Virus record (IMG/VR): IMGVR_UViG_3300044646_001039
Coordinates: 1-49,664 of that record
From: a virus
Length of the DNA stretch: 49,664 bases
Direction: 5' to 3' (one strand)
Part shown: positions 3,592 to 29,317 of the stretch, piece after piece
Numbering within the stretch: the stretch's first letter is position 1
How the letters are laid out: each line of letters begins with the position of its first letter
The notes under the pieces: generated by a model
Told to the model about the DNA's origin: nothing
The model's database searches: none
Seen by the model: the letters and a program-made list of their open reading frames with translations, nothing else
Position numbers and translations under genes: made by a program

Positions 3592-4455
3592 ATGTTCAAG
3601 ACTCTCAACAACTGGATCCAGAGCAAGGTCAACGGATACGTCACCGAAGCGATCAAGCACCGCATGCTCGACAAGGTTGCGATGCACGAGGCTGCGGTCA
3701 ATGCGATCGATCTGCAACGGGTGATCCTCGATGTGACGTCTGCCGTGAAGATGTGGTGCGCTGACAACGCCTCCGAAAAGCTGGCCGACGACGATGGCTT
3801 GAAGGAGATGGTTGCCGACATGGTGGCGAAGGACTTCGACCGCAGCGACCTGCGGGACCGAATTGTCGAGGAGTTGGCTTCGAACATCGACGAAGACTCG
3901 ATCTCCGAGCGAGTGGCCGAAGGGGTCGAGATCGACGCCGACGACATCGCCGAGCAGGTCAAGGATGGCATGGACACTGACGACATCGCTGAGGCAGCCG
4001 CAGAGAAGTTGGTGGAAAACATCGACGAGGACGATGTTGTTGACAAGGTTGTCGAAAAGCTGCTTGAAGACATCGACGAGGACGACGTCGCCGAGAAGGC
4101 CGCTGAAAGGATTGGCGACAACATCGACAGCGACAAGCTGATCGACAAAGCCGCCCACGCCCTTGCTGACAACTTCAATGGCCTTGACGGCGTGATCAAC
4201 AAAGCTGCTGAGGTCGTCGCCGACTCGATCACTGCTGCTGATGTCATCGAAGAAGCCGGGCAGCGGGCCGCTGACGGCTTGTATACCGACGATGTCGTCA
4301 AGGCTGCCGCCAAGATCGCCGCTGAGAACGTCGACCCCGGCGAGATGGCCGACAACGTCGCTCGCAACCTGCTCGATCAGGTTGCCGACCAGATCGACTA
4401 TCAGAAGCTGGCGGCTGCCCTGCTCGACGAGATCGCTGCCCGTAAGACTGCTTGA
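3592..4455 (+). CDS. highly acidic 17-residue-repeat protein
   Basis: 287 aa, start ATG 3592 after GAAAGG; the reading frame is open further upstream but without a ribosome site. Residues ~83-285 are about 11-12 tandem helical units, most 17 residues long, of the form D-x-D-D-[IV]-x-x-x-x-[AV]-x-x-[LIV]-x-x-x-[IVL], for example DEDDVAEKAAERIGDNI (162-178). The units are crowded with Asp and Glu, so net charge is strongly negative. Residues 1-65 form a non-repeat head. I know of no named family. The repeat geometry suggests an elongated helical rod or solenoid. Acidic phage proteins can mimic DNA or bind basic partners, but nothing here proves that. The AAA+ gene is two genes downstream. Confidence 0.75.
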   Translation: MFKTLNNWIQSKVNGYVTEAIKHRMLDKVAMHEAAVNAIDLQRVILDVTSAVKMWCADNASEKLADDDGLKEMVADMVAKDFDRSDLRDRIVEELASNIDEDSISERVAEGVEIDADDIAEQVKDGMDTDDIAEAAAEKLVENIDEDDVVDKVVEKLLEDIDEDDVAEKAAERIGDNIDSDKLIDKAAHALADNFNGLDGVINKAAEVVADSITAADVIEEAGQRAADGLYTDDVVKAAAKIAAENVDPGEMADNVARNLLDQVADQIDYQKLAAALLDEIAARKTA

Positions 4456-4510
4456 TCAATCCCCGGTGTCCCAAGTGAACGAAACCATTTCTAGAAGAAA
4501 GGTTGATGTG

Positions 4511-4816
4511 ATGAACAACAGATTCTACCTCGTGCACAGAGAAGACAGCGATCTGTGGCAACTGTGCGGCAAGGCCGGAAGCCCGTGCCAGACGCCCGGC
4601 AGCTTGGCCCGTGCGATGGAGTTGATCAAGCGGTTTGAAAAGGTGAAGGCCAACGGTGTGACGTGGCCTGTGCCTGTTTGGTTTGTGCAGGCTGATGGCA
4701 ATGGAGGCGAGGCCGGTCAGTGGGACGGCCATGTGGACAGCGAAGGTTGGTGGAGCTTCGTCCTCGCGGACCCAACCAACAATCGACCCGCCACCTCGAC
4801 CAATCGGCCTGCATAA
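4511..4816 (+). CDS. hypothetical protein
   Basis: 101 aa, ATG 4511 after AGAAAGG. It is rich in Trp and Gly (WQLCGKAG, VTWPVPVWFVQ, GQWDGHVDSEGWWSFVL), suggesting a small beta-rich fold. The final residues (PTNNRPATSTNRPA) look unstructured. Not recognised. It is followed by a promoter-bearing gap of 108 nt. Confidence 0.6.
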   Translation: MNNRFYLVHREDSDLWQLCGKAGSPCQTPGSLARAMELIKRFEKVKANGVTWPVPVWFVQADGNGGEAGQWDGHVDSEGWWSFVLADPTNNRPATSTNRPA

Positions 4817-4821
4817 CGGGC

Positions 4822-4867
4822 TTGTCCTCTCGGCTCACATTTGCGATAATGAAACCAGTTCTAGAAC
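4822..4867 (+). promoter_or_regulatory. candidate promoter with ACATTTGCGATA box and palindrome
   Basis: TTGTCC (4822-4827), 17-nt spacer, GATAAT (4845-4850). The -10 overlaps ACATTTGCGATA (4837-4848), the same 12-mer as at 2842. A 10-bp palindrome, GTTCTAGAAC, sits at 4858-4867 around the expected transcription start and could be an operator. It would drive the AAA+ gene at 4925. Confidence 0.55.
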
Positions 4868-4924
4868 AGGTGGCCGGTCGCATCCACACGTTCTTTCAAT
4901 CACGCGACACTAGGAGTTAGATCA

Positions 4925-6154
4925 ATGTCCGAAAGCTATGAGACGATGAAGTTTCGCCACCTCCGCTCGCTAATCTTCCAGCGAAACATTGGCACGCCGG
5001 GGTGGCGTGTGACTGCGACGAAGGCAAAGATCATCGCTGCGCTGTACGAGGCCGATGCTGGCGGCACGGCCACCGCCGTTGCCGACGGCGAGCCAAGCGA
5101 TCCGGTTGTGATCGACCACGATGAGCCTCGCCCCGTTCGGGCCAGACGGCGAACCGCCACCGTCGATCCGTCGAACAGCGATGGCTCTGGCCTTGCTGCT
5201 GTGCTGGCCGAGCACCTTGGGCCGTACATGAAGTCGGCTGTCAATCGCGATCAGGTCGAAGCAATCATCGATGAGAAGTTCGAAGACATCAAGGCTCGCG
5301 TGTCCTCGATGTCGAAGACAATCATCATCGACAACATCTTGACCGGCGAGTTGAACAAGCCGATCGGCGTTCAGCACAAGCGGTTCGACGCCTTGCTGCG
5401 AGTCGCTCAGTTGCGACTGCACAGCTACCTTGTCGGCCCGATGGGTTCCGGCAAGACATCGGCATGCAAGTTCGTTGCCGAAGCTCTCGGTCTGCCGCAC
5501 GCCCAAAAGTCAGTTGGTCTGCAAACGACCGAGATGGATCTGCTCGGCTACCGCGACAGCAGCGGAACGTATCAGACGACCGACCTGCGGCGGTGCTACG
5601 AGAACGGCGGCGTGTTCCTGCTCGACGAGATCGATGCTGGCAACCCGCAGGTGCTTGTCGTCTTGAACTCGCTGCTTGCCAACGGCGAGTGCTCCTTCCC
5701 CGATGGCATGGTGAAGAAGCACCCCGACTTCGTGCTGCTGGCCGGTGCGAACACCTACGGGCTTGGTGGCGACCGGCAGTATGTCGGCCGGTGCCAGCTT
5801 GACGCCTCGACGCTTGATCGCTTCATCTACATGACTTGGGACTACGACTCCAACATCGAATCGCTCATGTGCGGCGTCGATCCGAAGTTCTTCTGGAACG
5901 CCCCGTCACCCGAGATCGTGCTCGATGCGATTGCGATTGATGATCGGCAGGCTGCCTGCGACCGCTATGTCGAGAACTGCTGCCGCGTTCGCCAGCGGCT
6001 GCACGAGCTTGGCGGTGCGGTGCGAATGGGTATGAGTCCCCGCACGCTCAATCACGGCTGCATGCTGATTCGTGCTGGCTTCTCTATCGACGACGCGATG
6101 GAGATGTGCCTGTGGCGTGGCGCCGACCAGATGGTTCGCAACAAGCTGTCTTGA
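4925..6154 (+). CDS. MoxR/CbbQ-type AAA+ ATPase
   Basis: 409 aa. AAA+ core at about residues 140-400: Walker A GPMGSGKT (171-178), Walker B VFLLDEID (230-237), sensor-1 region LLAGANTYG (271-279) and a conserved LDRF (297-300). The order and the ELLG-like MDLLGYRD after Walker A fit the CbbQ/NorQ/MoxR (AAA_5) branch, which remodels or activates partner proteins, usually with a VWA-domain protein encoded nearby. The N-terminal ~130 residues hold a short helical element (1-45), a charged linker and a possible coiled coil. ATG follows AGGAG. The next gene encodes the expected VWA-like partner. Confidence 0.85.
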   Translation: MSESYETMKFRHLRSLIFQRNIGTPGWRVTATKAKIIAALYEADAGGTATAVADGEPSDPVVIDHDEPRPVRARRRTATVDPSNSDGSGLAAVLAEHLGPYMKSAVNRDQVEAIIDEKFEDIKARVSSMSKTIIIDNILTGELNKPIGVQHKRFDALLRVAQLRLHSYLVGPMGSGKTSACKFVAEALGLPHAQKSVGLQTTEMDLLGYRDSSGTYQTTDLRRCYENGGVFLLDEIDAGNPQVLVVLNSLLANGECSFPDGMVKKHPDFVLLAGANTYGLGGDRQYVGRCQLDASTLDRFIYMTWDYDSNIESLMCGVDPKFFWNAPSPEIVLDAIAIDDRQAACDRYVENCCRVRQRLHELGGAVRMGMSPRTLNHGCMLIRAGFSIDDAMEMCLWRGADQMVRNKLS

Positions 6155-6168
6155 TTGTTCGGATACGC
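6153..6168 (+). promoter_or_regulatory. GATTGTTCGGATTCC-type leader motif, copy 2
   Basis: GATTGTTCGGATACGC overlaps the TGA of the AAA+ gene and ends 36 nt before ATG 6205. It matches the other copies at 3501, 7779, 8035 and 10922. Confidence 0.4.
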
Positions 6169-6204
6169 AACCTCTCAAAAAACAGAACTGAAAGGAACAC
6201 GACG

Positions 6205-7113
6205 ATGGCACGATCTGGAACACGACGAATTGCAAAGACAGCCAGCACAGCAGGTGGCAGCGAGAAGCGAAACTTCCTGCGGTTTGAACGATGGAGTGAC
6301 TTCATCGAGCACACCGATGTGATGCCTGAGAACGCTCAGGCTAGGGCTAAGAATGGATCGTCTTGGAGTTCATGGTCTTTGTGTGTTGGCGCAGACGCCA
6401 GCGAAGGCATGGAGTTTTTCGGAACGCACAGCAAGCAAGCGGCAGACAAGCTGATGCGAAAGGGTTGGGCTGACGGCACTCGCAGGGTCATGGAACTCAG
6501 GGCCGAACTGGACGAACTCGTTCAGGCCGCTTCTGTTGCCAAGTCCCGAACGCATGGCTGGTCGCAGTCTGGCGAGTGGCTGCACATTGGGCGAGCCATA
6601 CAGGGCAGGCCCGACTGCTTCAGTCGCACGTTTGACATGCACGATGATGCGGCCGGGCGTGTTATCACCGTCGTGCAGAACGCATCGTGCTCTGCTGTCG
6701 TTAGCGAGAGCACAATCTTCAAGCGCGGTGCCGTCACGCTGTGTCTTGTTGACATGCTTGAAACGCTCGGCCATCGCGTCGAGTTGCTCTACGGAACGTG
6801 TGCTGAACGTACAGACGAACCAGGCGTGTTTGATGAGTTCCACGCTGTCGCCAAATCTCCCGGCGAGCAGCTCGACATCGACCGGCTGTCGTTCTTCTTC
6901 TGTCACCGCTCTGGACTCAGGCGCTACTGCTTCAGCGTGTACGAGCGATTCGGTCGCATGTTCGGAGGCATGCCTAGACCCATGAAGCGAACGCTCGACG
7001 AGAACCGTGGCTGCGTCATGATCCCTGAGATTCATGCACACACCGAACCAAAGGATGCCGTGATGCAGTGCATGCGTGCTGCTGGCATCACGATCGACTT
7101 CGATAGGAACTGA
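6205..7113 (+). CDS. VWA-like partner of the AAA+ ATPase (degenerate MIDAS)
   Basis: 302 aa. ATG 6205 follows AAAGGA. A beta strand RVITVVQ followed by NASCS occupies the place where VWA domains carry the metal-binding D-x-S-x-S. It is followed by the long helix RGAVTLCLVDMLETLGH and the strand RVELLYG, the usual VWA order. Asp is replaced by Asn, so the metal site looks degenerate. The N-terminal half holds a charged helix (WADGTRRVMELRAELDELVQ). Placement directly after a MoxR/CbbQ ATPase supports a two-component chaperone like CbbQ/CbbO or NorQ/NorD. The fold assignment is inferred from pattern, not a search. Confidence 0.55.
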   Translation: MARSGTRRIAKTASTAGGSEKRNFLRFERWSDFIEHTDVMPENAQARAKNGSSWSSWSLCVGADASEGMEFFGTHSKQAADKLMRKGWADGTRRVMELRAELDELVQAASVAKSRTHGWSQSGEWLHIGRAIQGRPDCFSRTFDMHDDAAGRVITVVQNASCSAVVSESTIFKRGAVTLCLVDMLETLGHRVELLYGTCAERTDEPGVFDEFHAVAKSPGEQLDIDRLSFFFCHRSGLRRYCFSVYERFGRMFGGMPRPMKRTLDENRGCVMIPEIHAHTEPKDAVMQCMRAAGITIDFDRN

Positions 7114-7146
7114 CATTGGCCCGACACCCGAACCGGAGATAACGCG

Positions 7147-7773
7147 ATGACACTGACAACGATCCACGGCATGAACGCCTTCGAATGCGTAAGTGCAATG
7201 CAGAAGTGCATACGACGAGGGCTAGAACGCGAAGCGATGGAGTTTGTGGTCGAGCTTGCCCACACTTCACGCAACCTTGCGACTATGGTGTGCAACCGGC
7301 TTGAGATCATCTCGCACGAGGACATTGGTCTGGCAGATCCATTCGTCGTCGTGTTTGTTCGCACTGCTTGCCAGCAGGCTATGCAGTGGTACGACGCCGA
7401 CAAGATTGGCAAGTGGCGCATGCCTGTTGGCAACGCTGTTCGCCTGATGTGCCGGTCTGCCAAGTCGCGAGAGGGCGACCACTTCCAGGCCGCTGTTGGC
7501 CTGCGGTCGCTGATGGACGGCTTCAAGCCCGAGATCCCAGACTTCGCATGCGACATGCACACGCACAAGGGCCGCAGCCTCGGCAGGGGCATCGAGCACT
7601 TCATGGAAGAAGGCACGAAGCTCGTGCCGCCAGACGCCGAACCCGACATCTACCGGGATGAGGCATACAAGTATTGGATCCGTAAGCATGGCTCAGCGTC
7701 ACGCCCGCAATCGAAGAAGACTGCCCCACGGCAGTCGCAGAAGTTATGGGAAGACGCCGACGAAGGTGAGTGA
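7147..7773 (+). CDS. RarA/MgsA C-terminal-domain protein without ATPase domain
   Basis: 208 aa. Residues ~5-125 match the tetramerisation/C-terminal region of RarA (MgsA) replication-fork AAA+ proteins: HGMNAFECVSAMQKCIRRG, then the diagnostic SHEDIGLADP (56-65), then helices with QQAMQWYDADKIGKWRMPVGNAVRLM. No P-loop is present. RarA acts at stalled forks with SSB and the clamp loader. Here the domain stands alone, while a separate small AAA+ clamp-loader-like protein is encoded at 10213; the two might work together, or this protein may compete with host RarA. The C-terminal tail is charged and probably disordered. Confidence 0.75.
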   Translation: MTLTTIHGMNAFECVSAMQKCIRRGLEREAMEFVVELAHTSRNLATMVCNRLEIISHEDIGLADPFVVVFVRTACQQAMQWYDADKIGKWRMPVGNAVRLMCRSAKSREGDHFQAAVGLRSLMDGFKPEIPDFACDMHTHKGRSLGRGIEHFMEEGTKLVPPDAEPDIYRDEAYKYWIRKHGSASRPQSKKTAPRQSQKLWEDADEGE

Positions 7774-7778
7774 TGTTC

Positions 7779-7794
7779 GATTGTTCTGGTTCTC
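7779..7794 (+). promoter_or_regulatory. GATTGTTCGGATTCC-type leader motif, copy 3
   Basis: GATTGTTCTGGTTCTC, the most divergent copy, lies 5 nt after the preceding TGA and 19 nt before ATG 7814. Confidence 0.3.
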
Positions 7795-7813
7795 TAACTC
7801 TAGAGAAGGAAGC

Positions 7814-8026
7814 ATGACGATGGCGAAGAAGAATCGCGAAGACACGACGGTGTGGTGTGTGGTTGCAGTCAAGGGCGAGGCCCTTAGCAGGTGGGTCACA
7901 GTGCATGGGCCGTTCGAGAACCGCGACAAGGCCTTCACGTACGCCATGAACATCCAGCAGTTCGATGGCGAGCGAACTGAGGTGTGTCCCCTGCAGCTTG
8001 ATCGTCCGTGGCTGATTGATGACTGA
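7814..8026 (+). CDS. small hypothetical protein
   Basis: 70 aa, ATG 7814 with GAAGGA upstream. It has a basic start (AKKNRED), a beta-like stretch (VWCVVAVKG, RWVTVHGPF) and a helix (NRDKAFTYAMNIQQF) and ends acidic. It reads like a small alpha/beta domain. No family recognised. Confidence 0.6.
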   Translation: MTMAKKNREDTTVWCVVAVKGEALSRWVTVHGPFENRDKAFTYAMNIQQFDGERTEVCPLQLDRPWLIDD

Positions 8027-8034
8027 CAGTGCTC

Positions 8035-8050
8035 GATTGTTCGGATTCCC
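8035..8050 (+). promoter_or_regulatory. GATTGTTCGGATTCC-type leader motif, copy 4
   Basis: GATTGTTCGGATTCCC, the best consensus copy, 8 nt after the preceding stop and 25 nt before ATG 8076. Confidence 0.4.
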
Positions 8051-8075
8051 AAACCCCTTTGAAGGAGATGATTCG

Positions 8076-8486
8076 ATGAAAGCTGTTCTGATCGATAGCG
8101 TCAACAAGGTCGTCAGCGATGTTGAGTACGACGGCGACTACCGGAGCATCTACGCTCTGATCAATTGCCAAGCGTTCGATGTCGTCGCACTGCCCAGCGG
8201 AGACGACTGCTGGATCGATGACGAGGGGCTGCTCAGTCTGACCGACGAGTCGCCGTTCTTCATCTACGACGGTCGTGCCGTCTACGCCGGAAGCGGTCTG
8301 ATCCTCGGGTCGAACCACGACACCGGCGACAGCACCGATGCCGGGAACGACGCCAGCTACTACCGGCCGCTGATTAGCTTCACGACTCGCGGCGAGTTGG
8401 CGCAGCGTGGCCTTGCCCCAGAGCCGGGCTTCACCGTGATGGCGTTTAGCGACTGGCTCGACTGGCACCGCGGCCAGATGTCTTGA
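8076..8486 (+). CDS. DUF3846-like protein
   Basis: 136 aa, ATG 8076 after a perfect GAAGGAG. The N-terminal half (KAVLIDSVNKVVSDVEYDG, then IYALINCQAFDVVAL, then CWIDDEGLL) fits the DUF3846 pattern found in phages: a strand-helix-strand ending in a conserved D-D-E/x-G-L-L. Function of the family is unknown. The rest includes FFIYDGRAVYAGSGLILG and a Trp-rich end. Followed by a hairpin. Confidence 0.6.
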   Translation: MKAVLIDSVNKVVSDVEYDGDYRSIYALINCQAFDVVALPSGDDCWIDDEGLLSLTDESPFFIYDGRAVYAGSGLILGSNHDTGDSTDAGNDASYYRPLISFTTRGELAQRGLAPEPGFTVMAFSDWLDWHRGQMS

Positions 8487-8503
8487 TGCGACCTGCTGGC
8501 CCG

Positions 8504-8530
8504 CCACCTGCGGTGCGTTGCCGCAGGTGG
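8504..8530 (+). terminator. hairpin, possible terminator
   Basis: Perfect 10-bp stem CCACCTGCGG/CCGCAGGTGG (8504-8513 with 8521-8530), 7-nt loop, 18 nt after the stop at 8486. No T-tract follows. The 161-nt gap to 8648 also has an AATTGATTGTGGAGTTC segment loosely like the leader motif; nothing else is seen in it. Confidence 0.45.
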
Positions 8531-8647
8531 TTGGGCTGGCCCGCCATGGAGGGCGACCTGTGAACATTCAATTGATTGTGGAGTTCTTAATTCTGGTCAT
8601 GCGGCTCGTCGCCGCAGGACAGGCCGACTGACTCAAAGGAGAGTGCG

Positions 8648-8869
8648 ATGAAACGAACCATCGATGTCGAGCTAACCATCGCAGAGCTTTACATCCTGCG
8701 TGATACGGCAACTGCCCAGTGGAGGCACTGGGACGAACTGGTTGAGGACGGGAACAAAAACGGGTGGTACGACGCAAAGTCTAAGGATCGGATCCTTACC
8801 AAGCAGCACACCACCTGGGAGCTTGTTCAGAAACTTCAAAAGAAAGTGAAGGAGGTTGAAAATGGCTGA
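8648..8869 (+). CDS. small helical protein
   Basis: 73 aa, ATG 8648 after AAAGGAGAG. Predicted mostly helical, with a long charged C-terminal helix (WELVQKLQKKVKEVENG) that could form a coiled coil. Not recognised. The next gene starts inside its end (8-nt overlap), with the ribosome site AAGGAGG in its coding sequence. Confidence 0.6.
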   Translation: MKRTIDVELTIAELYILRDTATAQWRHWDELVEDGNKNGWYDAKSKDRILTKQHTTWELVQKLQKKVKEVENG

Positions 8870-9185
8870 TTTGAAAATGGTCGATCCCAAATACGGCCGG
8901 TGGCACGCAGACGGACGACGCATCGTCCGCAACGGATACGACGGCGGCGGTCTGATTGGGACTGCCGGTGGCGACTTCTACGACGATGGACGCAAGGGCA
9001 GGACCGGCAAAACCATTGAGCCGATCCTCGACACGCTTGCGAACGCTCGGCTGATGGCAGCTGCGCCCGAAATGCTATGGGTGCTCAAGGAGGCACTGCA
9101 CCAGATCGAGAACAGCAGCGGTAAGCACGACGTGATTCAATTGTTTCGGAACGTAATCAACAAAGCAGAAGGGGCTGGTGAATGA
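8862..9185 (+). CDS. phage accessory protein (ANARLMAAAPEML family)
   Basis: 107 aa, ATG 8862 with AAGGAGG. It contains a Gly-rich central part and the widespread phage motif LANARLMAAAPEMLWVLKEAL, a helix shared by many small Ea/Ead-like phage proteins whose role is unknown. The next gene, coupled by ATGA, carries the same motif, so the two are probably distant duplicates. Confidence 0.65.
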   Translation: MADLKMVDPKYGRWHADGRRIVRNGYDGGGLIGTAGGDFYDDGRKGRTGKTIEPILDTLANARLMAAAPEMLWVLKEALHQIENSSGKHDVIQLFRNVINKAEGAGE

Positions 9186-9499
9186 TGATCGAGCACACGC
9201 CTGGGCCGTGGTTTGTCACCGATGCCGGTTGCGGATGTTTCGACATTTCCAATGGCACGCCAAACGAGCATGGAGAGGTCGAGCACGGCATCGCGACCGT
9301 ATGGGGCAACAGGCCATCGCTGTCCGCGACTGCGCATGGCGATGCCCGCTTGATTGCTGCCGCCCCCGACTTGCTTGAGGCCGTGAGAGCCATTGCAGAC
9401 GGATGCGAGTCTCGTTTGCGAAAGGGAAAGGACAGCGGTGATCTGATGACACTGCGTTTGTGTCGTGCTGTCATCGCTATTGCAAAAGGTGGCGAGTAG
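9182..9499 (+). CDS. phage accessory protein (HTPGPW / ARLIAAAPDLL family)
   Basis: 105 aa. Starts with EHTPGPWFVTD and ends with GDARLIAAAPDLLEAVRAIA, the two hallmarks of a very common small phage protein family of unknown function. ATG 9182 overlaps the preceding stop (ATGA); a second ATG three codon positions away is possible. Uses a TAG stop. Confidence 0.7.
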   Translation: MMIEHTPGPWFVTDAGCGCFDISNGTPNEHGEVEHGIATVWGNRPSLSATAHGDARLIAAAPDLLEAVRAIADGCESRLRKGKDSGDLMTLRLCRAVIAIAKGGE

Positions 9500-16724: not shown

Positions 16725-17003
16725 ATGGGACGCATGAAGGAACTTGACATCCGCATCCGCCAAGGCGGCGACGACGCCATAGCGGCTGTGGGAGAGATGC
16801 TGCCGCGCTGGATTCCGGTGAGCGAGCGACTCCCTCAAGAAGACGAGGACGTTATCGTTTTTACGGACGAGGAAAACGAAAAGGGCGTCCATGTCGCTTC
16901 GATTGATGAGGACGGAGTCTGGTGCCCCAGCCACGGCGACGGCTGGATGTTCCCAACCGTTACCCACTGGATGCCACTCCCCGAGCCACCGGAGGTGACA
17001 TGA
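16725..17003 (+). CDS. DUF551-domain protein
   Basis: 92 aa. WIPVSERLPQEDEDVIVFTD and the closing VTHWMPLPEPP are the exact hallmarks of DUF551, a small phage and prophage domain of unknown function. The middle (VHVASIDEDGVWCPSHGDGW) fits. ATG 16725 or 16734 possible. The stop overlaps the pseudopilin-like start as ATGA. Confidence 0.85.
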   Translation: MGRMKELDIRIRQGGDDAIAAVGEMLPRWIPVSERLPQEDEDVIVFTDEENEKGVHVASIDEDGVWCPSHGDGWMFPTVTHWMPLPEPPEVT

Positions 17004-17263
17004 AACGGGGGTTCACGCTCGTCGAAGCAATGGTCGTCGTCGCCATCCTGATGACACTGATCGGCCTGCTGTGGCCTGCGATCTCTGCCGCCAGAGCCGC
17101 AGCCAGCCGTGGCCGCGACGGCGTCGAGCATGCGACCGCCGGCCCGCCAGGATCGTGGAGCCTTCACACACGTCAGCACGACGGGCACTGGTTTGTTGAG
17201 CATGCAGGCGGTGGCGTGTGCCATCACCCTGACTGCCCGTGTAGTGGAAAGGTGGAGAGGTAA
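17000..17263 (+). CDS. phage-borne pseudopilin-like protein
   Basis: 87 aa. MKRG/FTLVE is a canonical type IV prepilin cleavage site (cut after Gly4, N-methylated Phe5, Glu at +5). It is followed by a hydrophobic helix (AMVVVAILMTLIGLLWPAIS) and AARAAASR, which closely resembles planctomycete DUF1559 pseudopilins. Those are ~300 aa; here the helix is joined to only ~50 residues with WFVEHAGGGVCHHPDCPC, a His/Cys cluster that may bind metal. It could enter or disturb a host type II secretion or pilus-like system, or anchor the Cys domain in the membrane. It is a good host marker. Confidence 0.75.
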   Translation: MKRGFTLVEAMVVVAILMTLIGLLWPAISAARAAASRGRDGVEHATAGPPGSWSLHTRQHDGHWFVEHAGGGVCHHPDCPCSGKVER

Positions 17264-20653: not shown

Positions 20654-21145
20654 ATGACCGCCCACGTTCTCCGCATTGGTGCCGCCGTGATTCTCGTCTG
20701 GTTTGCGATTTACGGAGTCGAAGCCCAGCGGACGCCGCCCAAGCCAGAGCTTGACGCCCCGGCTGAAGGCGTAGCCGACCGCGTTGCTCCGGTCGCCAAG
20801 GCTCTGCGTCAGGCGTCTGCCGTTGACCGGGCGTTGTGGGCCGAGGTTTGGGAGAAGGCTGCAAAGATCGTCGCTGGCGACGAGGTTGGGCAGCACGGCA
20901 ACGAGGTGATTTTCACCGACACGAAATCGCTGCGGGCGTTCACCGTCATCTGCCTCGACATCGCGTGGCACCGCATCGGAGGCAACCAGCCGGGCAAGTA
21001 TGACGGGCTGCGTGATGCCGTCGAAGGCTTTTTGAGCGACCCGGCGGTGCTGGGGCGCGACGACGTTGCTCTCACGCCGCAAATCCGCAAGGCGTACGTC
21101 GAGGCGGCACAGGCTCTTGCGTGGGCCGGAATCAACAGGGGGTGA
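20654..21145 (+). CDS. exported or membrane-anchored protein
   Basis: 163 aa. N-terminal TM or signal (LRIGAAVILVWFAIYGVEA, residues ~6-24; a cut after VEA is possible), then a Pro-rich linker and a helical domain (PVAKALRQASAVDRALWAEV, AFTVICLDIAWHRIGG, IRKAYVEAAQALAWAGI). Directly before the C1 peptidase, so it may act with it outside the cytoplasm. Function unknown. Confidence 0.55.
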   Translation: MTAHVLRIGAAVILVWFAIYGVEAQRTPPKPELDAPAEGVADRVAPVAKALRQASAVDRALWAEVWEKAAKIVAGDEVGQHGNEVIFTDTKSLRAFTVICLDIAWHRIGGNQPGKYDGLRDAVEGFLSDPAVLGRDDVALTPQIRKAYVEAAQALAWAGINRG

Positions 21146-21147
21146 CG

Positions 21148-22059
21148 ATGGGAGAGTTTGCCCCGCTGTTCGGCTACGAAGCAGACCCGAAAGCCAGCGA
21201 GAAGTTCGTCGCCTCACTCGCCAAGCCAACGATGGCAGACGCTGGGCCTGCCCTTGAGGTCGCACAGCACGACGTGTTCCTTGGGCATTACTTGCTCAAG
21301 GTGAATCCGCACTGGCAGCGAGGTGCGCAGCAGGTTGGCTCATGCGTCGGCTGGGGCTGGTCGCTGTCGTGCGACGTGCTGGCCGCGTGCGACATCTTGC
21401 TGCGTGGCGAGCGTGAGTCGTTCGGTGGCCGCGTGCTTGAGGCAGGCACCTATGCGTTCAGCCGGGTCGAGGCTCGCGGGCAGAAGTCGAACAACGGCGG
21501 CGATGGCAGCTACGGTGCGGCAGCGGCGAAGGCTGTCACGAAGTACGGCACGCTGCACTACGGTCTGAGCTACAACGGCAAGGAGTTCAACGAATCCAAC
21601 GGCAAGCTGGAGCGTGATTGGGGACGCAACGGAGTGCCAGACGAGCTTGAGCCGTTCGCCGCCAAGCACAAGGTGGCCGAAGTCACGGTCGTCCAAAACT
21701 TCGTGGACGTTGCGAAGGCCATCAGCAACGGGTACCCCGTGGCCGTGTGCAGCGGGTTGGGCTTCAACATGACTTTGCGTGAGGGCTGGCTGAAGCAGTC
21801 TGGCTCTTGGGCGCATTGCCAAATGATTTGCGGCGTGCGATTCGGCGACCGTCCCGGTGCGTTCGTGGAGAACAGTTGGGGCGACTGCTACGAAGGCACG
21901 GTTGACCAAGCCCTGCCGGTGCAGTTCCAGCGGAGCGGCGGATGGGTAGACGCCGACGTGATTGACCGGCTTGTTCGCGGCGACGACAGCTATGCGTTGG
22001 CCGGGTACCAAGGCTTCGCACCGAACCTGTTGCCAAACTGGACCGGAGGCTGGCTATGA
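21148..22059 (+). CDS. papain-like C1 cysteine peptidase
   Basis: 303 aa, ATG 21148 with AGGGGG. Catalytic set of the papain clan: Gln62 region and Cys66 (QQVGSCVGWGW), His223 (GSWAHCQMICGVRF) and Asn242 in the classic ENSWG. It has no signal peptide and no clear propeptide. Placed among TM, exported and holin-like genes, so it could be a lysis or surface-degrading enzyme, or be delivered or injected. C1 peptidases are unusual in phages. Alternatively a virion-associated processing enzyme. Confidence 0.85.
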   Translation: MGEFAPLFGYEADPKASEKFVASLAKPTMADAGPALEVAQHDVFLGHYLLKVNPHWQRGAQQVGSCVGWGWSLSCDVLAACDILLRGERESFGGRVLEAGTYAFSRVEARGQKSNNGGDGSYGAAAAKAVTKYGTLHYGLSYNGKEFNESNGKLERDWGRNGVPDELEPFAAKHKVAEVTVVQNFVDVAKAISNGYPVAVCSGLGFNMTLREGWLKQSGSWAHCQMICGVRFGDRPGAFVENSWGDCYEGTVDQALPVQFQRSGGWVDADVIDRLVRGDDSYALAGYQGFAPNLLPNWTGGWL

Positions 22060-22687: not shown

Positions 22688-22995
22688 TGGACGACAAAAA
22701 GACGACCACGACTTACGAGTTCTTCCTTGGCATTGCTGACCGATTTGGCGTGCCTTGCCTCATCCTTGCGGCAGTATTGTGGATGATCCGTGACGCTGGT
22801 CTGGCGTTGCACTCGACCGTTCTAGTTCCTGTTGTTCAGTCACACACGAAGTTCCTCGATGTTACGCAGGAGACTCTGAAGGAGATTGGGAAGGCGCAGG
22901 ACAAGCAGGCAGACACGCTGCAAGAGTTGGCTAATGGACAGCGTGACTTGCAGCATGCTGTTTCTCGCATCCCGCAATCGGGCGCGCAGAACTAA
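22687..22995 (+). CDS. putative holin-like protein (1 TM + coiled coil)
   Basis: 102 aa, TAATG overlap. One TM (VPCLILAAVLWMIRDAGLAL, residues ~22-41) and a coiled-coil tail (FLDVTQETLKEIGKAQDK, TLQELANGQRDLQHAVS). This TM-plus-coiled-coil layout is common in phage holin or XhlA-like accessory proteins. Next to the C1 peptidase block and just before HNH. Function by position only. Confidence 0.5.
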   Translation: MDDKKTTTTYEFFLGIADRFGVPCLILAAVLWMIRDAGLALHSTVLVPVVQSHTKFLDVTQETLKEIGKAQDKQADTLQELANGQRDLQHAVSRIPQSGAQN

Positions 22996-23306
22996 TGCCA
23001 TATAAAATCCCTACGGCTGTCATCGCCCAGCAGCCAAAGCAGCGCCGCAGAGAGGGCAGGCCGAATGCGTCTGCTCGTGGCTACTGCGATTCAAGGCACA
23101 AGGCTTGGCGCAAGGCTGTGCTCGTAAGGGATTGCTGGCAGTGTCGAACCTGCGGCCGAATCTGCACAGGAAAGGGCGAAGCTCATGCCGACCACATCGT
23201 TTCGATAGCATCTGGCGGTGCTCGATACGATGTTGACAACGGCCAGACGCTCTGCATTGCATGCCATGCTAGAAAGACGCTTGCTGAGAGAAGAAGCGTT
23301 GAGTGA
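22995..23306 (+). CDS. HNH endonuclease
   Basis: 103 aa, TAATG overlap. Zinc pairs C50-x2-C53 (WQCRTCG) and C87-x2-C90 (LCIACH) frame the HNH core: AHADHIVS (His67 general base), Asn82 (DVDNGQT) and His91. HNH proteins next to terminase support DNA cutting at cos ends in HK97-type phages. Here the terminase genes are 4 kb away because of the cargo cassette. Confidence 0.9.
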   Translation: MPYKIPTAVIAQQPKQRRREGRPNASARGYCDSRHKAWRKAVLVRDCWQCRTCGRICTGKGEAHADHIVSIASGGARYDVDNGQTLCIACHARKTLAERRSVE

Positions 23307-23547: not shown

Positions 23548-24963
23548 ATGAGCGAGCGTTCTAGAGTTGTGATCATTGGTGCTGGCCCGACCGGGCTTGG
23601 TGCTGCACGCCGCCTCACGGAGCTTGGGTGCTCTGACTGGCTGCTGCTTGAGGCTGGAGGCCAGCCTGGGGGACTGGCTGCGTCGTTTGTGGACGAGCGT
23701 GGGTTCACCTGGGATATCGGCGGCCACGTTCAGTTCTCGCATTACGAGTATTTCGACAGCGTGATGGACGACTTGCTCGGGCCTGACGGATGGCTGACGC
23801 ACGAGCGCGAAAGCTGGGTGTGGCTGCGCGGCCGTTTCGTTCCGTACCCGTTCCAGAACAACATTCGCCTGCTGCCACATGATGACGCCGAGCGATGCCT
23901 GCACGGCCTCGTTGACATTGTTGAATCGCCTCGCCCTGCGCCTAACCACTTTGGCGAATGGATGGAAGCGAAGTTTGGTCGCGGGATCGTTGATGTGTTT
24001 ATGCGGCCGTACAACTTCAAGGTGTGGGCGCACCCTGCTGAAGCGATGAGCGCGTCGTGGGTTGGCGAGCGTGTTGCCGTCACTGATCTTCGCCGCGTGC
24101 TTAGTAATTTCGTTCACGGCCGAGATGATGTTTCGTGGGGGCCGAACAGTACGTTCCGGTTTCCGCTCCGAGGCGGCACTGGTGCTGTGTGGAAAGCCTG
24201 TGCTGAACGACTTCCGAAGAATCATCTACGGTATGGGTGTCCAGTCGCGCACGTTGACCTCGACAGCAAAGTGCTGACGACAAGGAGCGGCCACCGCATC
24301 AAGTACGACACGCTTGTTTCGACCATGCCGCTCGATGTTCTTGCCGACTTGTCGCAGCAAGCGGAATTAGCTGCTGTTGCGCGCAACGGGCTGCTGCGGT
24401 CATCGTCAAACATCGTTGGCATTGGCCTGAACGGCGCACCGCCTGAAGCATTGCGCCGAAAGTGCTGGATGTATTTTCCTGAAGACGACTGTCCGTTCTA
24501 TCGCGTCACTGTTTTCAGCAACTACTCTCCAAACAACGTACGCGACCCGTCGTCGCAGTGGTCGCTCATGGCCGAAGTGTCCGAGTCTCAGCACAAGCCA
24601 GTAGATTCATTGTCGCTTGTCGATAGCGTTGTTGATGGAGCACTCGCGACAGGACTGATACGCGACAGGGGCGACGTTGTCAGCACATGGCGATATCGCG
24701 CTGAGTACGGGTATCCAATTCCTTCCGTTGGACGAGACAACGCGCTTGCCGTAATGCTCCCGTTCTTTGAGTCACACGATGTCTTGTCTCGCGGAAGGTT
24801 TGGGGCGTGGAAGTATGAGGTAAGCAATCAAGACCATTCGTTCATGCAGGGCGTTGAGGCCGCCGAGCGAATCATCAATGGGCGCAGTGAAGTGACCGTG
24901 TTTGATCCAGAGTACGCGAACTCACGCAAGCACGCATGGCCGTTTGGATGCTGGAACTCTTGA
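23548..24963 (+). CDS. eukaryotic-type UDP-galactopyranose mutase
   Basis: 471 aa. A flavoenzyme that converts UDP-galactopyranose to UDP-galactofuranose. FAD Rossmann motif VVIIGAGPTGLGAA (7-20). From memory of the Aspergillus UGM, near-identical blocks run through the whole length: GGHVQFSHYEYFD (58-70), VPYPFQNNI, FMRPYNFKVWA, WVGERVA, WGPNSTFRFPLRGGTG, LVSTMPLDVLA, CWMYFPEDDCPFYRVTVFSN, SRGRFGAWKYEVSNQDHSFM. Matching functional residues: His60, Arg174, Arg319, Tyr423, Asn427. Length fits the eukaryotic class (~480-510 aa), not the ~380-aa bacterial Glf. Not a typical phage gene; it starts the cargo cassette. Confidence 0.85.
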   Translation: MSERSRVVIIGAGPTGLGAARRLTELGCSDWLLLEAGGQPGGLAASFVDERGFTWDIGGHVQFSHYEYFDSVMDDLLGPDGWLTHERESWVWLRGRFVPYPFQNNIRLLPHDDAERCLHGLVDIVESPRPAPNHFGEWMEAKFGRGIVDVFMRPYNFKVWAHPAEAMSASWVGERVAVTDLRRVLSNFVHGRDDVSWGPNSTFRFPLRGGTGAVWKACAERLPKNHLRYGCPVAHVDLDSKVLTTRSGHRIKYDTLVSTMPLDVLADLSQQAELAAVARNGLLRSSSNIVGIGLNGAPPEALRRKCWMYFPEDDCPFYRVTVFSNYSPNNVRDPSSQWSLMAEVSESQHKPVDSLSLVDSVVDGALATGLIRDRGDVVSTWRYRAEYGYPIPSVGRDNALAVMLPFFESHDVLSRGRFGAWKYEVSNQDHSFMQGVEAAERIINGRSEVTVFDPEYANSRKHAWPFGCWNS

Positions 24964-25012: not shown

Positions 25013-25753
25013 ATGGCAGAGTTTCGCGACAGAATCAAAGAGCTGCGCAGAGTTCCGGCAAAAGATCTCGTCCTAAACGAGAAGAACTGGCGTGAACACG
25101 ATGTTCGCCAGCAAGATGCAATGCTGGAGCTTCTGTCCGAGATTGGCTACGCAGATGCTCTTGTTGCCTACGAGCTTGCGGATGGCAAGCTGAAGCTCAT
25201 TAACGGCCACATGAGGGCCGGGCTTACTCCAGAGCACGAAGTGCCAGTGATCGTGCTCGATGTCAACGAGGCCGAGGCCGACAAGCTGCTTGCCACGTTT
25301 GACCCTGTTTCGTCGTTTGCCGCGACGAACAAGGAAAAGCTGAAAAGCCTGATTGACTCGCTGCAGATCAATAACCACGACATGAGAAACGCGCTTTCGC
25401 GAATGGCCGCAGAAACCGCTCGCGTCGATCAGTCCATGCAGGCAAAGATCCAGAAGCGGCAGGCAGAACAAATCCTAGAGATGGAGTTAAAGCCGCTTGA
25501 GCACTACGACTACATCATCGTCATGGCCCGCAATGTGATGGACTGGAATAAGCTAGTTGACGTGTTTCATCTCCAGAAAACACGCAAGCCAACGTCCAGT
25601 CAGGTAGGTGTGTGCCGTGCCGTTGACGCCAAGGTGCTGCTTGCGATGCTCAAGGGGAATGATGATGCGGAATCGAGTGTTGCCGCTGTCCCCGCCGTAG
25701 ATGTAAAGCCTGCTGCAGCGAAGAAGGGGGAGGCAAAGCATGGCCGCTCCTGA
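25013..25753 (+). CDS. ParB/Srx N-terminal-domain protein
   Basis: 246 aa, ATG 25013 with AAGGAG upstream. The N-terminal ~100 residues fit the ParB-like fold: VPAKDLVLNEKNWREH, then LKLINGHMRAGL (the family's G-H-x-R motif), then VPVIVLDVNEAEADKLLATF. ParB-fold proteins bind CTP or act as nucleases; phage copies often lie by terminase or DNA-modification genes. The C-terminal half has a domain with YIIVMARNVMDWNKLVDVF and a low-complexity Ala/Lys tail. The start of the next gene overlaps by 14 nt. Confidence 0.75.
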   Translation: MAEFRDRIKELRRVPAKDLVLNEKNWREHDVRQQDAMLELLSEIGYADALVAYELADGKLKLINGHMRAGLTPEHEVPVIVLDVNEAEADKLLATFDPVSSFAATNKEKLKSLIDSLQINNHDMRNALSRMAAETARVDQSMQAKIQKRQAEQILEMELKPLEHYDYIIVMARNVMDWNKLVDVFHLQKTRKPTSSQVGVCRAVDAKVLLAMLKGNDDAESSVAAVPAVDVKPAAAKKGEAKHGRS

Positions 25754-26591
25754 GAGCAGGGTTGTCGTAATTCCTAGTCGGCGACGGGCTGACAACATCC
25801 CCTACATGCTGAAGTGCTTTCCCGAGGCCATTGTGTGCGTCGAGGACTCCGAGGCAGAAGACTACAAGCCTGTTGTTCCTGGCTCGCAGCTTGTTTTGCA
25901 TCCGCCGCTTCACGGATCTGCCGACATCCGAAACTGGATGATTGACTACTTTCAGGAAGACTGCATCTTTCAGGTTGATGACGACTTCAAACGAATCCAG
26001 TGCTACTGTAACGCTGACGTTCGTCATGTCAGCCACATAACCGAGGCCGACCATATTCGCGGCATCATCGACAATGCCCATTGGCCTGCGTTTGATCTTG
26101 GTCTTGGTGTTTTCTCGTGGGCTAGGTTCGCCAATCCCATGCAATACAGGCCGTACGAGCCTGTGCTTCTCTGCGGAACTCCGATCATGTGTGCCTTTGG
26201 GCTTCGCGGGCCGGCTCGACGGCGCAAGTTTGATCTGTCAGTGCCGCACATGGCAGACCTGAACTTTGCCATGGAGACGTATCGCGACGACCGCATTGCG
26301 TACGTCGATGCACGGTACTACTGGGACTTTGGCAAGATCTACAGCGGCGTTGGCGGAAATCAAGGCATGGTCAGCTATTCGCAGCGGCAGAACTCTATTC
26401 GCCTTATGCGGTCGCGGTGGACTCGATACCTCACCGTCGGCAGTGCTCAGGAAACGTCTGGAAAGGGCCTGAAGTCGGCTACGCTTCGGCCAGACACGCA
26501 AGGCATATCAATTCGCATTCAACGCAAAAGCGTCCAGGCTGCGAAAGGCTTTCCCGGTGCTCGATCCCCTGCTGATGGAGGTCACGACTAA
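25740..26591 (+). CDS. GT-A-like glycosyltransferase (TAGT-like)
   Basis: 283 aa. VVVIPSRRRADNIPYMLKCF, a middle with SEAEDYKPV, then DIRNWMIDYFQEDCIFQVDDDFKRI. The IPSxxRAD start, RNW, and a D-D-D metal motif (residues 80-82) follow the layout of GT-A enzymes of the TET-associated glycosyltransferase type, which in phages put sugars on modified bases. No TET or hydroxymethylase gene is seen in this window, so the substrate may instead be a glycan, lipid or protein. Beside a UDP-Galf-producing enzyme, UDP-Galf is a plausible donor. Name is by pattern only. Confidence 0.6.
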   Translation: MAAPESRVVVIPSRRRADNIPYMLKCFPEAIVCVEDSEAEDYKPVVPGSQLVLHPPLHGSADIRNWMIDYFQEDCIFQVDDDFKRIQCYCNADVRHVSHITEADHIRGIIDNAHWPAFDLGLGVFSWARFANPMQYRPYEPVLLCGTPIMCAFGLRGPARRRKFDLSVPHMADLNFAMETYRDDRIAYVDARYYWDFGKIYSGVGGNQGMVSYSQRQNSIRLMRSRWTRYLTVGSAQETSGKGLKSATLRPDTQGISIRIQRKSVQAAKGFPGARSPADGGHD

Positions 26592-27244
26592 TGAAAAAGC
26601 CACTTATGATGATGACGCTTCCGTCGTCTGGATCGACTTGGCTTGCTGACGTTATCGTTCGCGAGCTTGGGCTTGTTGCTCACCAGAAGTCTTGCGAGTT
26701 CTTCCAACCTCTCACGAACCTTGCTCTGTACGAGCCACTGTCTAAGTGCTTTGGGTCTGAGAACCCGTCGTGCATGGACAACATCATGACGATGCCGAAG
26801 CAGGACGACTTCGACTTTGCTGTCAAGCAATTTCACAAGCACGGCTACACGTTCTGCAAGGAAGTGTTTCAGTTCTTTCACACTCCGCTGTTTGTTCGGC
26901 ACTTCGATGTGTTTTTTCTCTACAGGAGCGCAGAGCACACGTTTCCGCCGAGCCGCCTGCGTGTTTTGTCGTGGTACGACGCAATCGCGACCGCAATAGA
27001 GAATAAGGTCGGAAACCGATTCTCTAGAACGAACCTGCTCGCAAGAGCCATCGAGTCGCACGAGTGGTGCTGGGGCTATTTGATCAAAGGCTACGCAGAG
27101 TCTTACGGGCTGCCGATCTTGAACTACGAAACAATTGCGAATGACGTGGAGGCTGGAGTTCGCGGTGAGCTTGGAAAAGTGTTCTCTGGCGACGACTTGA
27201 GCAGGCTTGTGCAGGCAGTGATGGCATCTAGAAAGCCGCGATAG
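26591..27244 (+). CDS. sulfotransferase
   Basis: 217 aa, TAATG-coupled to the glycosyltransferase. The N-terminal strand and loop LPSSGSTWLAD (10-20) match the 5'-phosphosulfate-binding P-loop of PAPS sulfotransferases (P-x-S-G-T/S-T-W-L). The second PAPS site appears as FFLYRSAEHTFPPSRLR (family R-x-x-x-D-x-x-x-S region). Transfers sulfate from PAPS to a hydroxyl, often of a sugar. Shorter than most family members. With the two genes before it, it suggests sulfated galactofuranose-containing decoration. Confidence 0.7.
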   Translation: MKKPLMMMTLPSSGSTWLADVIVRELGLVAHQKSCEFFQPLTNLALYEPLSKCFGSENPSCMDNIMTMPKQDDFDFAVKQFHKHGYTFCKEVFQFFHTPLFVRHFDVFFLYRSAEHTFPPSRLRVLSWYDAIATAIENKVGNRFSRTNLLARAIESHEWCWGYLIKGYAESYGLPILNYETIANDVEAGVRGELGKVFSGDDLSRLVQAVMASRKPR

Positions 27245-27264: not shown

Positions 27265-27765
27265 GTGGGAGTAAGAGGCCCGGCGCCGCAGCCGACGCTG
27301 CTGAAATACATTCGTGGCAATCCTGGCAAGCGACCGCTCAACGAGAATGAGCCGGTGCCTGACGAGTCGGCAGATGTTCCGTGTCCAGACTGGCTTACAG
27401 GCGATGCACGAGACAAGTGGCACCGCGTGTATCCGGTGTTGCGAAGCATGCGAATGCTCACGGTTGCTGACGAGTCCACGCTTGCTCGGTACTGTGCGTT
27501 ATGGGCAGAGTGGAAGCGGCACTACGACTTCTCTAAACAGCCCGGCGGCGACATCTACACGCTGATGGACGCAGAGGGTAATGTCCGGTACATGAGTCCG
27601 ACTGCACAGACGAGCCTGATGATAAAGCTCACGCCGCTGCTTTTGCGTATGGAGCAGGAGTTTGGTTTGACGCCAAGTAGCCGCTCGCAGGTGACAATCC
27701 ATGACAGTCCAGAGGAAGATCCGCTTCAAGCGTTTGTCGCGCAGCGAGGCACTGGGGCTGGGTGA
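27265..27765 (+). CDS. terS: terminase small subunit (P27 family)
   Basis: 166 aa, GTG 27265 with AAAAGGAG. P27-type features: RGPAPQPTLLKYIRGNPGKR, LNENEPVPDESADVPCPDWL, KWHRVYPVLRSMRMLT and ARYCALWAEWKRH, then the conserved SPTAQTSLMIKL. Recognises phage DNA for packaging and recruits TerL. Overlaps terL by 65 nt. Confidence 0.92.
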   Translation: MGVRGPAPQPTLLKYIRGNPGKRPLNENEPVPDESADVPCPDWLTGDARDKWHRVYPVLRSMRMLTVADESTLARYCALWAEWKRHYDFSKQPGGDIYTLMDAEGNVRYMSPTAQTSLMIKLTPLLLRMEQEFGLTPSSRSQVTIHDSPEEDPLQAFVAQRGTGAG

Positions 27766-29317
27766 GCCGTACTATTTTGATGAGAACGCTGCCGAGCACG
27801 CATGCAACTTCTTCAAGTTGTTTCTCAGGCATAGTCGCGGTCGCTGGGCAGGCAAGCCGTTTGAGCTTCTGCCGTGGCAGCGAACTGACATCGTCCGCGA
27901 AGTGTTTGGATGGCGTCGAACCGCTGACGACCTGCGCAGGTACAGGACTGCATACATCGAAGTGCCGAAAAAAAACGGCAAGAGCACACTGCTTGCTGGC
28001 ATCGGGCTGTATCTACTGGTCGCCGACGGCGAGCCTGGAAGCGAAGTGTACGGCGCAGCTTGCGACCGCGAGCAGGCATCGATTATCTATCGCGAAGCCG
28101 CTGCGATGGTCCGCGCAAGCCCCGAATTGTCTCGTGTTCTAGAGATTGTCGAGAGCCGCAAGACGATAGCGATGCCGTCGCGTGCAGGGTTCTATCGCGT
28201 CCTCTCCGCTGACGGGTTTCGTGCCGAAGGCCTAAACATTCACGGCCTGCTGTTTGACGAGCTTCACGCACAGAAAGACAGGCGGCTGTTCGACTCTCTC
28301 CGGTACGGCGGCGCAGCCCGCGAGCAGCCGCTGCTGGTTTCAATCACGACTGCCGGGTACGACAGAAACTCAATTTGCTACGAGCAGCACCAGTACGCGA
28401 AGCGCATACTCGCCGACGAGGGAACTGACCCGACGTTCTTTGCATACATTGCCGCCGCTGACGATGCGGACGATTGGAAGCTGGAGGAAACGTGGCGCAA
28501 GGCAAACCCTTCACTTGGGTCAACCATGAAGGTGGATGACTTTGCCGCTGACTGCGCCGAAGCATCGCTGAGCAGCACGAAAGAAAACTCGTTCAAACGG
28601 TACAGGCTGAACATCTGGACGCAACAGGACACGCGGTGGATCAAGTCTGATGCCTGGGCCGCATGCTCGGACGGCCCGCCTGAGCCTCTTGAGGGTCGGC
28701 CTTGCTGGATTGGGCTGGATCTTGCGTACTCGCAAGACACTTCTGCTCTTGTTGCTGTGTTTCCGGCGGCGGATGGGTATGTAGATGTGTTTGCCAAGTT
28801 CTACATTCCGCAGGACATGATGGCAGACCGAGAGCGACGAGACAGGTTCCAGTATTCACAATACGTCCGTGAGGGATTCATAACCGCCACTCCCGGCAAC
28901 GTGACTGACTACGACTTCATCCGAAACGACATCGAGCAGTTCTCTGGCATCTACAACATCAGGAAGATTGCACTCGACCGATGGAACGCAACGCAACTGT
29001 CGAATCAGTTGCAGGGGCTTGGGCTTGATGTCGTTGGGTGGCCGCAGTCGTTCGCTGGCATGAATGGACCGAGCAGGCAGCTAGAAAATCTTCTAGAAAG
29101 CAAAAAACTAAGGCACGCAGGCAATCCCGTGCTCTCGTGGCAGGCCAACAACGCTAGCGTCAGGACCAACGCAGAAGGAAACATTCGGCCATTGAAGCCA
29201 AAGCCTAACGGCACTGAGCGCGTTGACGGCATCATTTCGCTTGTGATGGCCCTCGGCGCATGGTCTGCCGAAGAACACACGCCCCCCAGTCCCGAACCGC
29301 AGGTCATTGTGTTATGA
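27701..29317 (+). CDS. terL: terminase large subunit
   Basis: 538 aa. Packaging motor ATPase and headful/cos nuclease. Walker A-like VPKKNGKST (88-96), Walker B LLFDE (183-187), coupling region SITTAG, and nuclease Asp340 (IGLDLAYSQDT) with later acidic partners in the RNase H-like domain (IALDRWNATQL and the final VDGIISLVMALGA). Fits the Terminase_1/HK97 group. AGGTGA precedes ATG 27701. A run of eight A at about 27967 lies in frame and has no effect. Confidence 0.95.
   Translation: MTVQRKIRFKRLSRSEALGLGEPYYFDENAAEHACNFFKLFLRHSRGRWAGKPFELLPWQRTDIVREVFGWRRTADDLRRYRTAYIEVPKKNGKSTLLAGIGLYLLVADGEPGSEVYGAACDREQASIIYREAAAMVRASPELSRVLEIVESRKTIAMPSRAGFYRVLSADGFRAEGLNIHGLLFDELHAQKDRRLFDSLRYGGAAREQPLLVSITTAGYDRNSICYEQHQYAKRILADEGTDPTFFAYIAAADDADDWKLEETWRKANPSLGSTMKVDDFAADCAEASLSSTKENSFKRYRLNIWTQQDTRWIKSDAWAACSDGPPEPLEGRPCWIGLDLAYSQDTSALVAVFPAADGYVDVFAKFYIPQDMMADRERRDRFQYSQYVREGFITATPGNVTDYDFIRNDIEQFSGIYNIRKIALDRWNATQLSNQLQGLGLDVVGWPQSFAGMNGPSRQLENLLESKKLRHAGNPVLSWQANNASVRTNAEGNIRPLKPKPNGTERVDGIISLVMALGAWSAEEHTPPSPEPQVIVL

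Follow-up and report, generated by a model that had tools for sequence, protein, structure and literature searches.

Among phages that decorate their DNA, the best known draw glucose from the host pool, and to our knowledge few phages make their own sugar donor. RB69 arabinosylates its own DNA (arabinosyl-hmC), for which a donor pathway has been proposed (PMC6024577), and Shewanella phage Thanatos makes its own UDP-xylose, which is thought to feed cytosine modification and for which the UDP-xylose pyrophosphorylase has been assayed (PMC12838424). Characterised members of the TAGT glycosyltransferase family act on DNA; in 288 of 753 phage genomes a TAGT occurs without an alpha- or beta-GT, and novel transferases have been suggested (PMC13216743). 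UDP-galactopyranose mutase (UGM) is on record in Agrobacterium phage Atu_ph04 (gp6; PMC6630229) and in lake phage DSL-LC01 (PMC10611076). UGMs of the eukaryotic class are marked by a GGH loop and a uracil-binding glutamine (Gln107 in A. fumigatus numbering), and uracil binding by glutamine is exclusive to this class (PMC3624792). In the T. cruzi enzyme, residues H62, R176, N201, Y317, R327, Y395, R423, Y429 and N433 have been analyzed (PMC4192007).

Here we describe a cassette in a 49,664-base virus record (the window, meaning the whole stretch analyzed), which encodes an integrase, beta clamp, RusA, HNH endonuclease, P27 small terminase subunit (TerS), large terminase subunit (TerL), HK97-type portal and capsid protein. 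The UGM of the window resembles the eukaryotic-class enzymes of T. cruzi (4dsg) and A. fumigatus (3uka/3ute) in its full-length homology (47-52% identity), GGH loop, Gln107 equivalent and catalytic residues, but it is phage-encoded beside a glycosyltransferase (GT) and its nearest kin are bacterial. Atu_ph04 gp6 is also a phage-carried UGM; however, this Glf has 390 aa and aligns with the window UGM at the FAD motif only, as expected for the other class, and is annotated as a cell-wall gene; the few genes annotated nearby include no ParB-GT partner. The likeness to DSL-LC01 is that of a phage carrying a UGM. The GT of the window is akin to TAGT and the T2-T6 beta-glucosyl-HMC-alpha-glucosyltransferase in its family match (PF20691, PHROG 842) and DDD motif, but is partnered with a ParB-like protein and a UGM, and no TET or hydroxymethylase was seen with it. 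As in RB69 and Thanatos, a sugar-nucleotide enzyme and a glycosyltransferase are both phage-encoded; in contrast, the donor in the window would be UDP-galactofuranose (UDP-Galf), with a sulfation step possible. The UGM adds a member to a known enzyme class, its gene is real and rare, and the cassette extends phage glycosylation systems; we found no report of such a cassette setting.

Results

Organization of the cassette

The cassette consists of four genes on the same strand, in the order UGM, ParB-like, TAGT-type GT and sulfotransferase-like, located between the HNH and TerS genes. The features are listed below, where L002 is a second viral contig.

22995..23306, + strand: HNH endonuclease, left border of the cassette (PF01844, 2e-9)
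23548..24963, + strand: UGM of the eukaryote/bacterial non-Glf class, 471 aa (phmmer E=4.7e-156 to 4dsg; catalytic residues conserved; L002 homologue 75% identical with the same neighbors)
25013..25753, + strand: ParB-like protein with a ParB/CTPase-fold N-terminal domain and a conserved C-terminal HYDY...G.xR domain (PHROG 498, 620; Noc)
25740..26591, + strand: GT-A-type glycosyltransferase of the TAGT / beta-glucosyl-HMC-alpha-glucosyltransferase family (PF20691, PHROG 842; DDD motif, QVDDD, residues 78-82)
26591..27244, + strand: sulfotransferase-like protein, putative function (5'-PSB-like loop LPSSGSTWLA; 3'-PB-like R112...S127 motif)
27265..27765, + strand: terminase small subunit, P27 family, right border of the cassette (TIGR01558, 1.6e-16; 86% identical in L002)
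27701..29317, + strand: terminase large subunit (PF20441, 1.9e-44; PF03354, 1.4e-29)

The ParB-like gene starts 49 bases past the UGM gene, the GT gene overlaps the ParB-like gene by 14 bases, and the fourth gene (217 aa) overlaps the GT gene by one base and ends 20 bases ahead of TerS. A purine-rich site was identified upstream of each of the four genes. Among the 2.9 million contigs of IMG/VR, L002 was the single other contig found with this UGM; the patterns used to search the viral collection included the strongly conserved NQDHSFMQ. Gene order in L002 is identical (UGM, ParB, GT, sulfotransferase-like, TerS, TerL), and comparison with the window revealed protein identities of 75% for the UGM, 60% for ParB, 50% for the GT, about 25-26% for the fourth gene product and 86% for TerS. 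Contamination with host DNA was ruled out by the virus record, the phage genes on both flanks of the cassette and the repetition of the gene order in L002, and the presence of TerS, TerL, portal and capsid genes agrees with the original prediction of a phage-encoded enzyme. Searches of INPHARED phages with the GT, ParB-like and fourth proteins yielded nothing but four weak ParB matches.

Identity of the UGM

The ORF at 23548-24963 (+) has an ATG start with GAGG upstream, contains no internal stops, and almost certainly encodes a UGM. A phmmer search of the PDB returned T. cruzi UGM 4dsg as the best match (E=4.7e-156, residues 6-468), followed by A. fumigatus UGM at ~1e-145, which bears out the prediction of a full-length eukaryotic-class enzyme of 471 aa. 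In the alignment, the phage protein is 52.2% identical to the T. cruzi enzyme and 47.3% identical to that of A. fumigatus; these two are 49.1% identical to each other, and the phage protein is about equally close to each. All nine of the T. cruzi active-site residues checked are conserved in the window UGM (H60, R175, N200, Y309, R319, Y389, R417, Y423 and N427). The prediction had correctly named the equivalents of His60, Arg319, Tyr423 and Asn427, and its Arg174 is properly Arg175. Both eukaryotic-class marks are present, namely the GGH loop (G58-G59-H60) and Q103 at the position of Gln107. No match to the bacterial Glf profiles TIGR00031 and PF03275 was found in Pfam and NCBIfam searches, and BLASTP against the phage-borne, bacterial-class Glf of Atu_ph04 gave a 47-residue match at the FAD motif and nothing more; in agreement with the original prediction, the protein is not a bacterial Glf.

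Comparison of the window and L002 UGM genes (75% protein identity) gave a dN of 0.20 and a dS of 1.63, from which it follows that the gene is not a chance reading frame. The window UGM is under purifying selection. Mutase activity is predicted from the sequence, and the gene most likely encodes a working mutase that was taken from bacteria.

Origin and spread of the UGM class

The description of the protein as eukaryotic or fungal-type held for the enzyme class but not for its origin. A single scan, in which each bacterial or archaeal species was represented by one genome, confirmed 279 relatives; the 80 of these that were retained are 52-65% identical and belong to Verrucomicrobiota, Bacteroidota, Sumerlaeota, Acidobacteriota, Chromatiaceae and others; this UGM class is present in 18 of 392 planctomycete genomes. 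A maximum-likelihood tree, as suggested with the original prediction, paired the window and L002 UGMs at support 100 and placed them inside a mixed bacterial clade (22 rows, support 99), with the two eukaryotic sequences lying elsewhere. From its position among bacterial sequences, the UGM gene appears to have been captured by the phage from bacteria, which are the most likely source. Transfer from a eukaryote is unsupported given the 279 bacterial and archaeal relatives and the position of the phage pair in the tree.

Most of the six bacterial UGM loci inspected adjoin ABC-type polysaccharide export genes or GT2 enzymes, as judged from the sequences by eye rather than by family search. None of the cassette genes was found beside the bacterial UGM loci, and no relative of the GT was found in 16 UGM-holding genomes. 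Three UGM matches in INPHARED were only 22-30% identical and were rejected as too distant to belong to the same class. With no INPHARED match above ~30% identity and no report of this class in phages among the papers searched, the expectation that it had gone unreported there was upheld.

The ParB-like protein, glycosyltransferase and fourth protein

The ParB-like protein matched PHROG 498 (3e-8), PHROG 620 (9e-8) and also PHROG 723, and a profile of its family found the nucleoid-occlusion ParB Noc (E=2e-4); these matches indicate a ParB_N-type domain. The window protein had no match in Pfam, and its relative in contig L087 passes PF02195.

The GT matched PF20691 (TAGT) at 29.2 bits against a cutoff of 27.5, a modest match that spans profile positions 3-104 of 205, and matched PHROG 842 (the T2/T6 DNA glucosyltransferase family) at 6e-9. 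PF20691 was also above cutoff for the GT copies of L088, L118 and L122 and slightly below it for the L124 copy, and the DDD of QVDDD is invariant in 6/6 GT relatives. The AlphaFold model of the GT was weak (pLDDT 53), and its best Foldseek match, the fucosyltransferase WrtF, was not significant. A base-hydroxylating enzyme in association with the GT was not seen: no TET/JBP dioxygenase (PF12851) or thymidylate-synthase-type base hydroxymethylase (PF00303) was matched in the window, a linear contig that may be incomplete, and no TET was found in four planctomycete genomes or the L088 record, which may be fragments.

Alignment of the fourth protein revealed an R...S..Y pattern ~100 residues past the loop, resembling PAPS-dependent sulfotransferases. 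Lysine or arginine is usual ahead of SGS/T in the sulfotransferase loop, whereas this protein has serine. It is 36% identical to its relative in L122, 34% to that in L124 and about 25-26% to that in L002. No family matched the fourth protein above cutoff, and the L124 copy has a weak Sulfotransfer_3 match at the loop. A low-confidence structural model (pLDDT 56) matched sulfotransferases and adenylate kinases about equally (E ~4e-3, not significant). When the viral collection was scanned with the sulfotransferase-like family, L002, L122 and L124 were returned and nothing else. On balance, we lean slightly toward a sulfotransferase.

Related ParB-GT loci

With the GT family widened, the set came to 20 loci, of which five are prophage-like places spread over four planctomycete genomes; the others are the window and 14 further viral contigs. 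ParB lies directly upstream of the GT in 19 of the 20 loci, with one ORF between them in L088; the remaining locus is cut by the contig end. In L124, the ParB (5074-5748) and GT (5989-6756) genes are followed by those for a bacterial-class Glf (6753-7862) and a sulfotransferase-like protein (7859-8563); next comes a kinase/nucleotidyltransferase gene (8539-9360) whose product weakly matches APS kinase. The order ParB, GT, Glf, sulfotransferase-like recurs in L122. The Glf of L124 matched PF03275 (4e-62) and TIGR00031 (318 bits, cutoff 304), and that of L122 matched PF03275 (1e-65) and fell slightly under the TIGR00031 cutoff at 302 bits. Two very different UGM classes occupy the same module, which suggests that the tie between UGM and module is functional and not accidental.

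A UGM of either class and the sulfotransferase-like family coincide in four of the 20 loci (window, L002, L122 and L124), while 16 are without a UGM in the stretches compared, which are of unequal length. Chance would give this coincidence in 1 of 4845 cases were the loci independent; they are not, and the fair count is two lineages (window/L002 and L122/L124), a small effective sample for co-occurrence. In the GT tree these two pairs were separate in all bootstraps, and a single origin was not firmly rejected (AU P = 0.055).

Three further loci carry genes of a related kind. In L088, the GT is followed by GalE (PHROG 540, 1e-62), and an OGG-like DNA-glycosylase-type protein, possibly a base-modification enzyme, lies between ParB and GT (5155-5709; PADLOC OGG, 3e-37). 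L084 carries a different sulfotransferase of the galactose-3-O-sulfotransferase family (PHROG 3347, 1e-7), and in L118, a ParB-GT phage, an APS kinase (7032-7754; TIGR00455 above cutoff) directly follows TerL. Genes acting on galactose nucleotides, and others that activate or transfer sulfate, are therefore recurrent neighbors of the GT.

Discussion

The original prediction left the purpose of UDP-Galf undecided among surface, virion and DNA decoration; the neighborhood points to a dedicated glycosyltransferase module and not a stray metabolic gene. We infer GT donor use, sulfation, a DNA acceptor and a protective role, in a route that would run as follows. The mutase would convert host UDP-galactopyranose to UDP-Galf, and the TAGT-type GT would move galactofuranose from UDP-Galf onto an acceptor. 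The fourth protein would then act on the attached galactofuranose, probably sulfating it with PAPS as donor. Phage DNA would be the most likely acceptor, delivered to the GT by the ParB-like protein, and the decoration would protect it against host nucleases. Since two UGM classes serve the same module, there is a good case that the window GT takes UDP-Galf as its donor. The reading we favor, with somewhat less assurance, is a phage module that supplies its own GT with UDP-Galf; DNA is the foremost candidate acceptor in this reading, not an established one. The assignment of DNA as the acceptor, taken singly, is evenly balanced; it draws on the membership of the GT in the TAGT / T2-T6 DNA glucosyltransferase family, the ParB partner in 19/20 loci and the OGG-like protein of L088. 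Counting against DNA is that no TET-type or thymidylate-synthase-type enzyme was found in the window and its relatives, records that may be fragments. The most specific version, in which galactofuranose is placed on phage DNA bases under ParB guidance and then sulfated, with independent recruitment of the donor enzyme from two UGM classes that differ widely, is offered tentatively.

The same enzymes could instead place (sulfated) galactofuranose on a phage structural protein, giving a virion glycan. Such a glycan would fit the position of the cassette directly upstream of the terminase, portal and capsid genes, a base-hydroxylating enzyme was not found in the window, and a soluble GT could act on protein. 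However, the characterised members of the GT family act on DNA (PMC13216743; PHROG 842), the constant ParB-like partner has a DNA-associated fold, and a DNA-glycosylase-type protein sits between ParB and GT in L088, and we regard a virion glycan as unlikely. A supply of UDP-Galf to a host surface polysaccharide, resulting in receptor change or phage exclusion (lysogenic conversion), appears more doubtful still. The phage has an integrase and so may be temperate, bacterial UGMs of the same class have polysaccharide-export genes and GT2 enzymes as neighbors, and Glf in other phages has been annotated as a cell-wall gene (PMC6630229, PMC10611076); yet the surroundings of the UGM showed no recognisable flippase, O-acetylase, or membrane or lipid-linked glycosyltransferase, and its fixed partners are the ParB, TAGT-type GT and sulfotransferase-like genes, as they are for the other-class Glf in L122 and L124. 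It is very improbable that the UGM is a passenger in the ParB-GT module with no functional tie: although 16/20 ParB-GT loci are without a UGM in the stretch compared, the gene order is conserved in two diverged phages, the gene is under purifying selection and a second UGM class was found in the same module. Finally, assignment to another flavin enzyme (amine oxidase, phytoene desaturase or protoporphyrinogen oxidase), the outcome the original prediction had named as contrary to it, was dismissed. Pfam recognises only Amino_oxidase/NAD_binding_8 and the best NCBIfam models are unnamed PRK07208 models below cutoff, but UGM structures match over the full length at 1e-145 to 5e-156 against 1e-4 for the next matches (polyamine oxidases, short N-terminal FAD-motif stretches alone) and every UGM catalytic residue checked is present.

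If the favored reading is true and the module does supply UDP-Galf to its own GT, the cassette would add a new sugar, and possibly negative charge, to the repertoire of phage DNA decoration; galactofuranose has not previously been reported for such use by a virus. Should both the DNA acceptor and sulfation hold, the product would be a new DNA hypermodification. The cassette offers a testable substrate for part of the solitary TAGTs and may be one answer to the question of their donor. The module could also yield galactofuranosyltransferases for a soluble polymer, which would be useful tools.

Other features of the phage genome

The planctomycete ParB-GT prophages hold relatives of the CbbQ-like ATPase, clamp-loader-like and MgsA_C-like proteins of the window. 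The CbbQ/MoxR-like ATPase (4925-6154; PHROG 249) and the MgsA_C-like protein (7147-7773) are encoded far from the cassette, and their relatives accompany the ParB-GT pairs of the planctomycete prophages. A short ORF at 16922-17263 carries a type IV pilin N-methylation motif (PF07963), which is odd for a phage, and resembles planctomycete pilin-like proteins by eye. From these prophage relatives and the pilin-type ORF, a planctomycete host is likely.

The HK97-type portal of L002 (5904-9767) carries a long fused C-terminal extension that includes, at residues ~1100-1260, an ADP-ribosyltransferase domain (PF03496, 1e-9; PF01129); the portal of the window has 455 aa only and is without this extension. 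TerL of L002 (4237-5907) is apparently in two frames, 4237-4536 and 4630-5907, by assembly error or frame break. In the window, the contig start (1-552) has a weak match, below cutoff, to 'Nucleotide modification associated domain 1' (PF07659). A 312-aa protein encoded at 21121-22059 has the look of a papain-type cysteine peptidase by eye (QVGSCVGWGWSLSCDV ... GSWAHC ... ENSWGDCYEG), with no family match at the thresholds used. In the tail region, a 1192-aa protein (44833-48411) has a collagen-like and Ig-like N-terminal part, after which come seven or more RCC1 repeats (PF00415, 8e-61).
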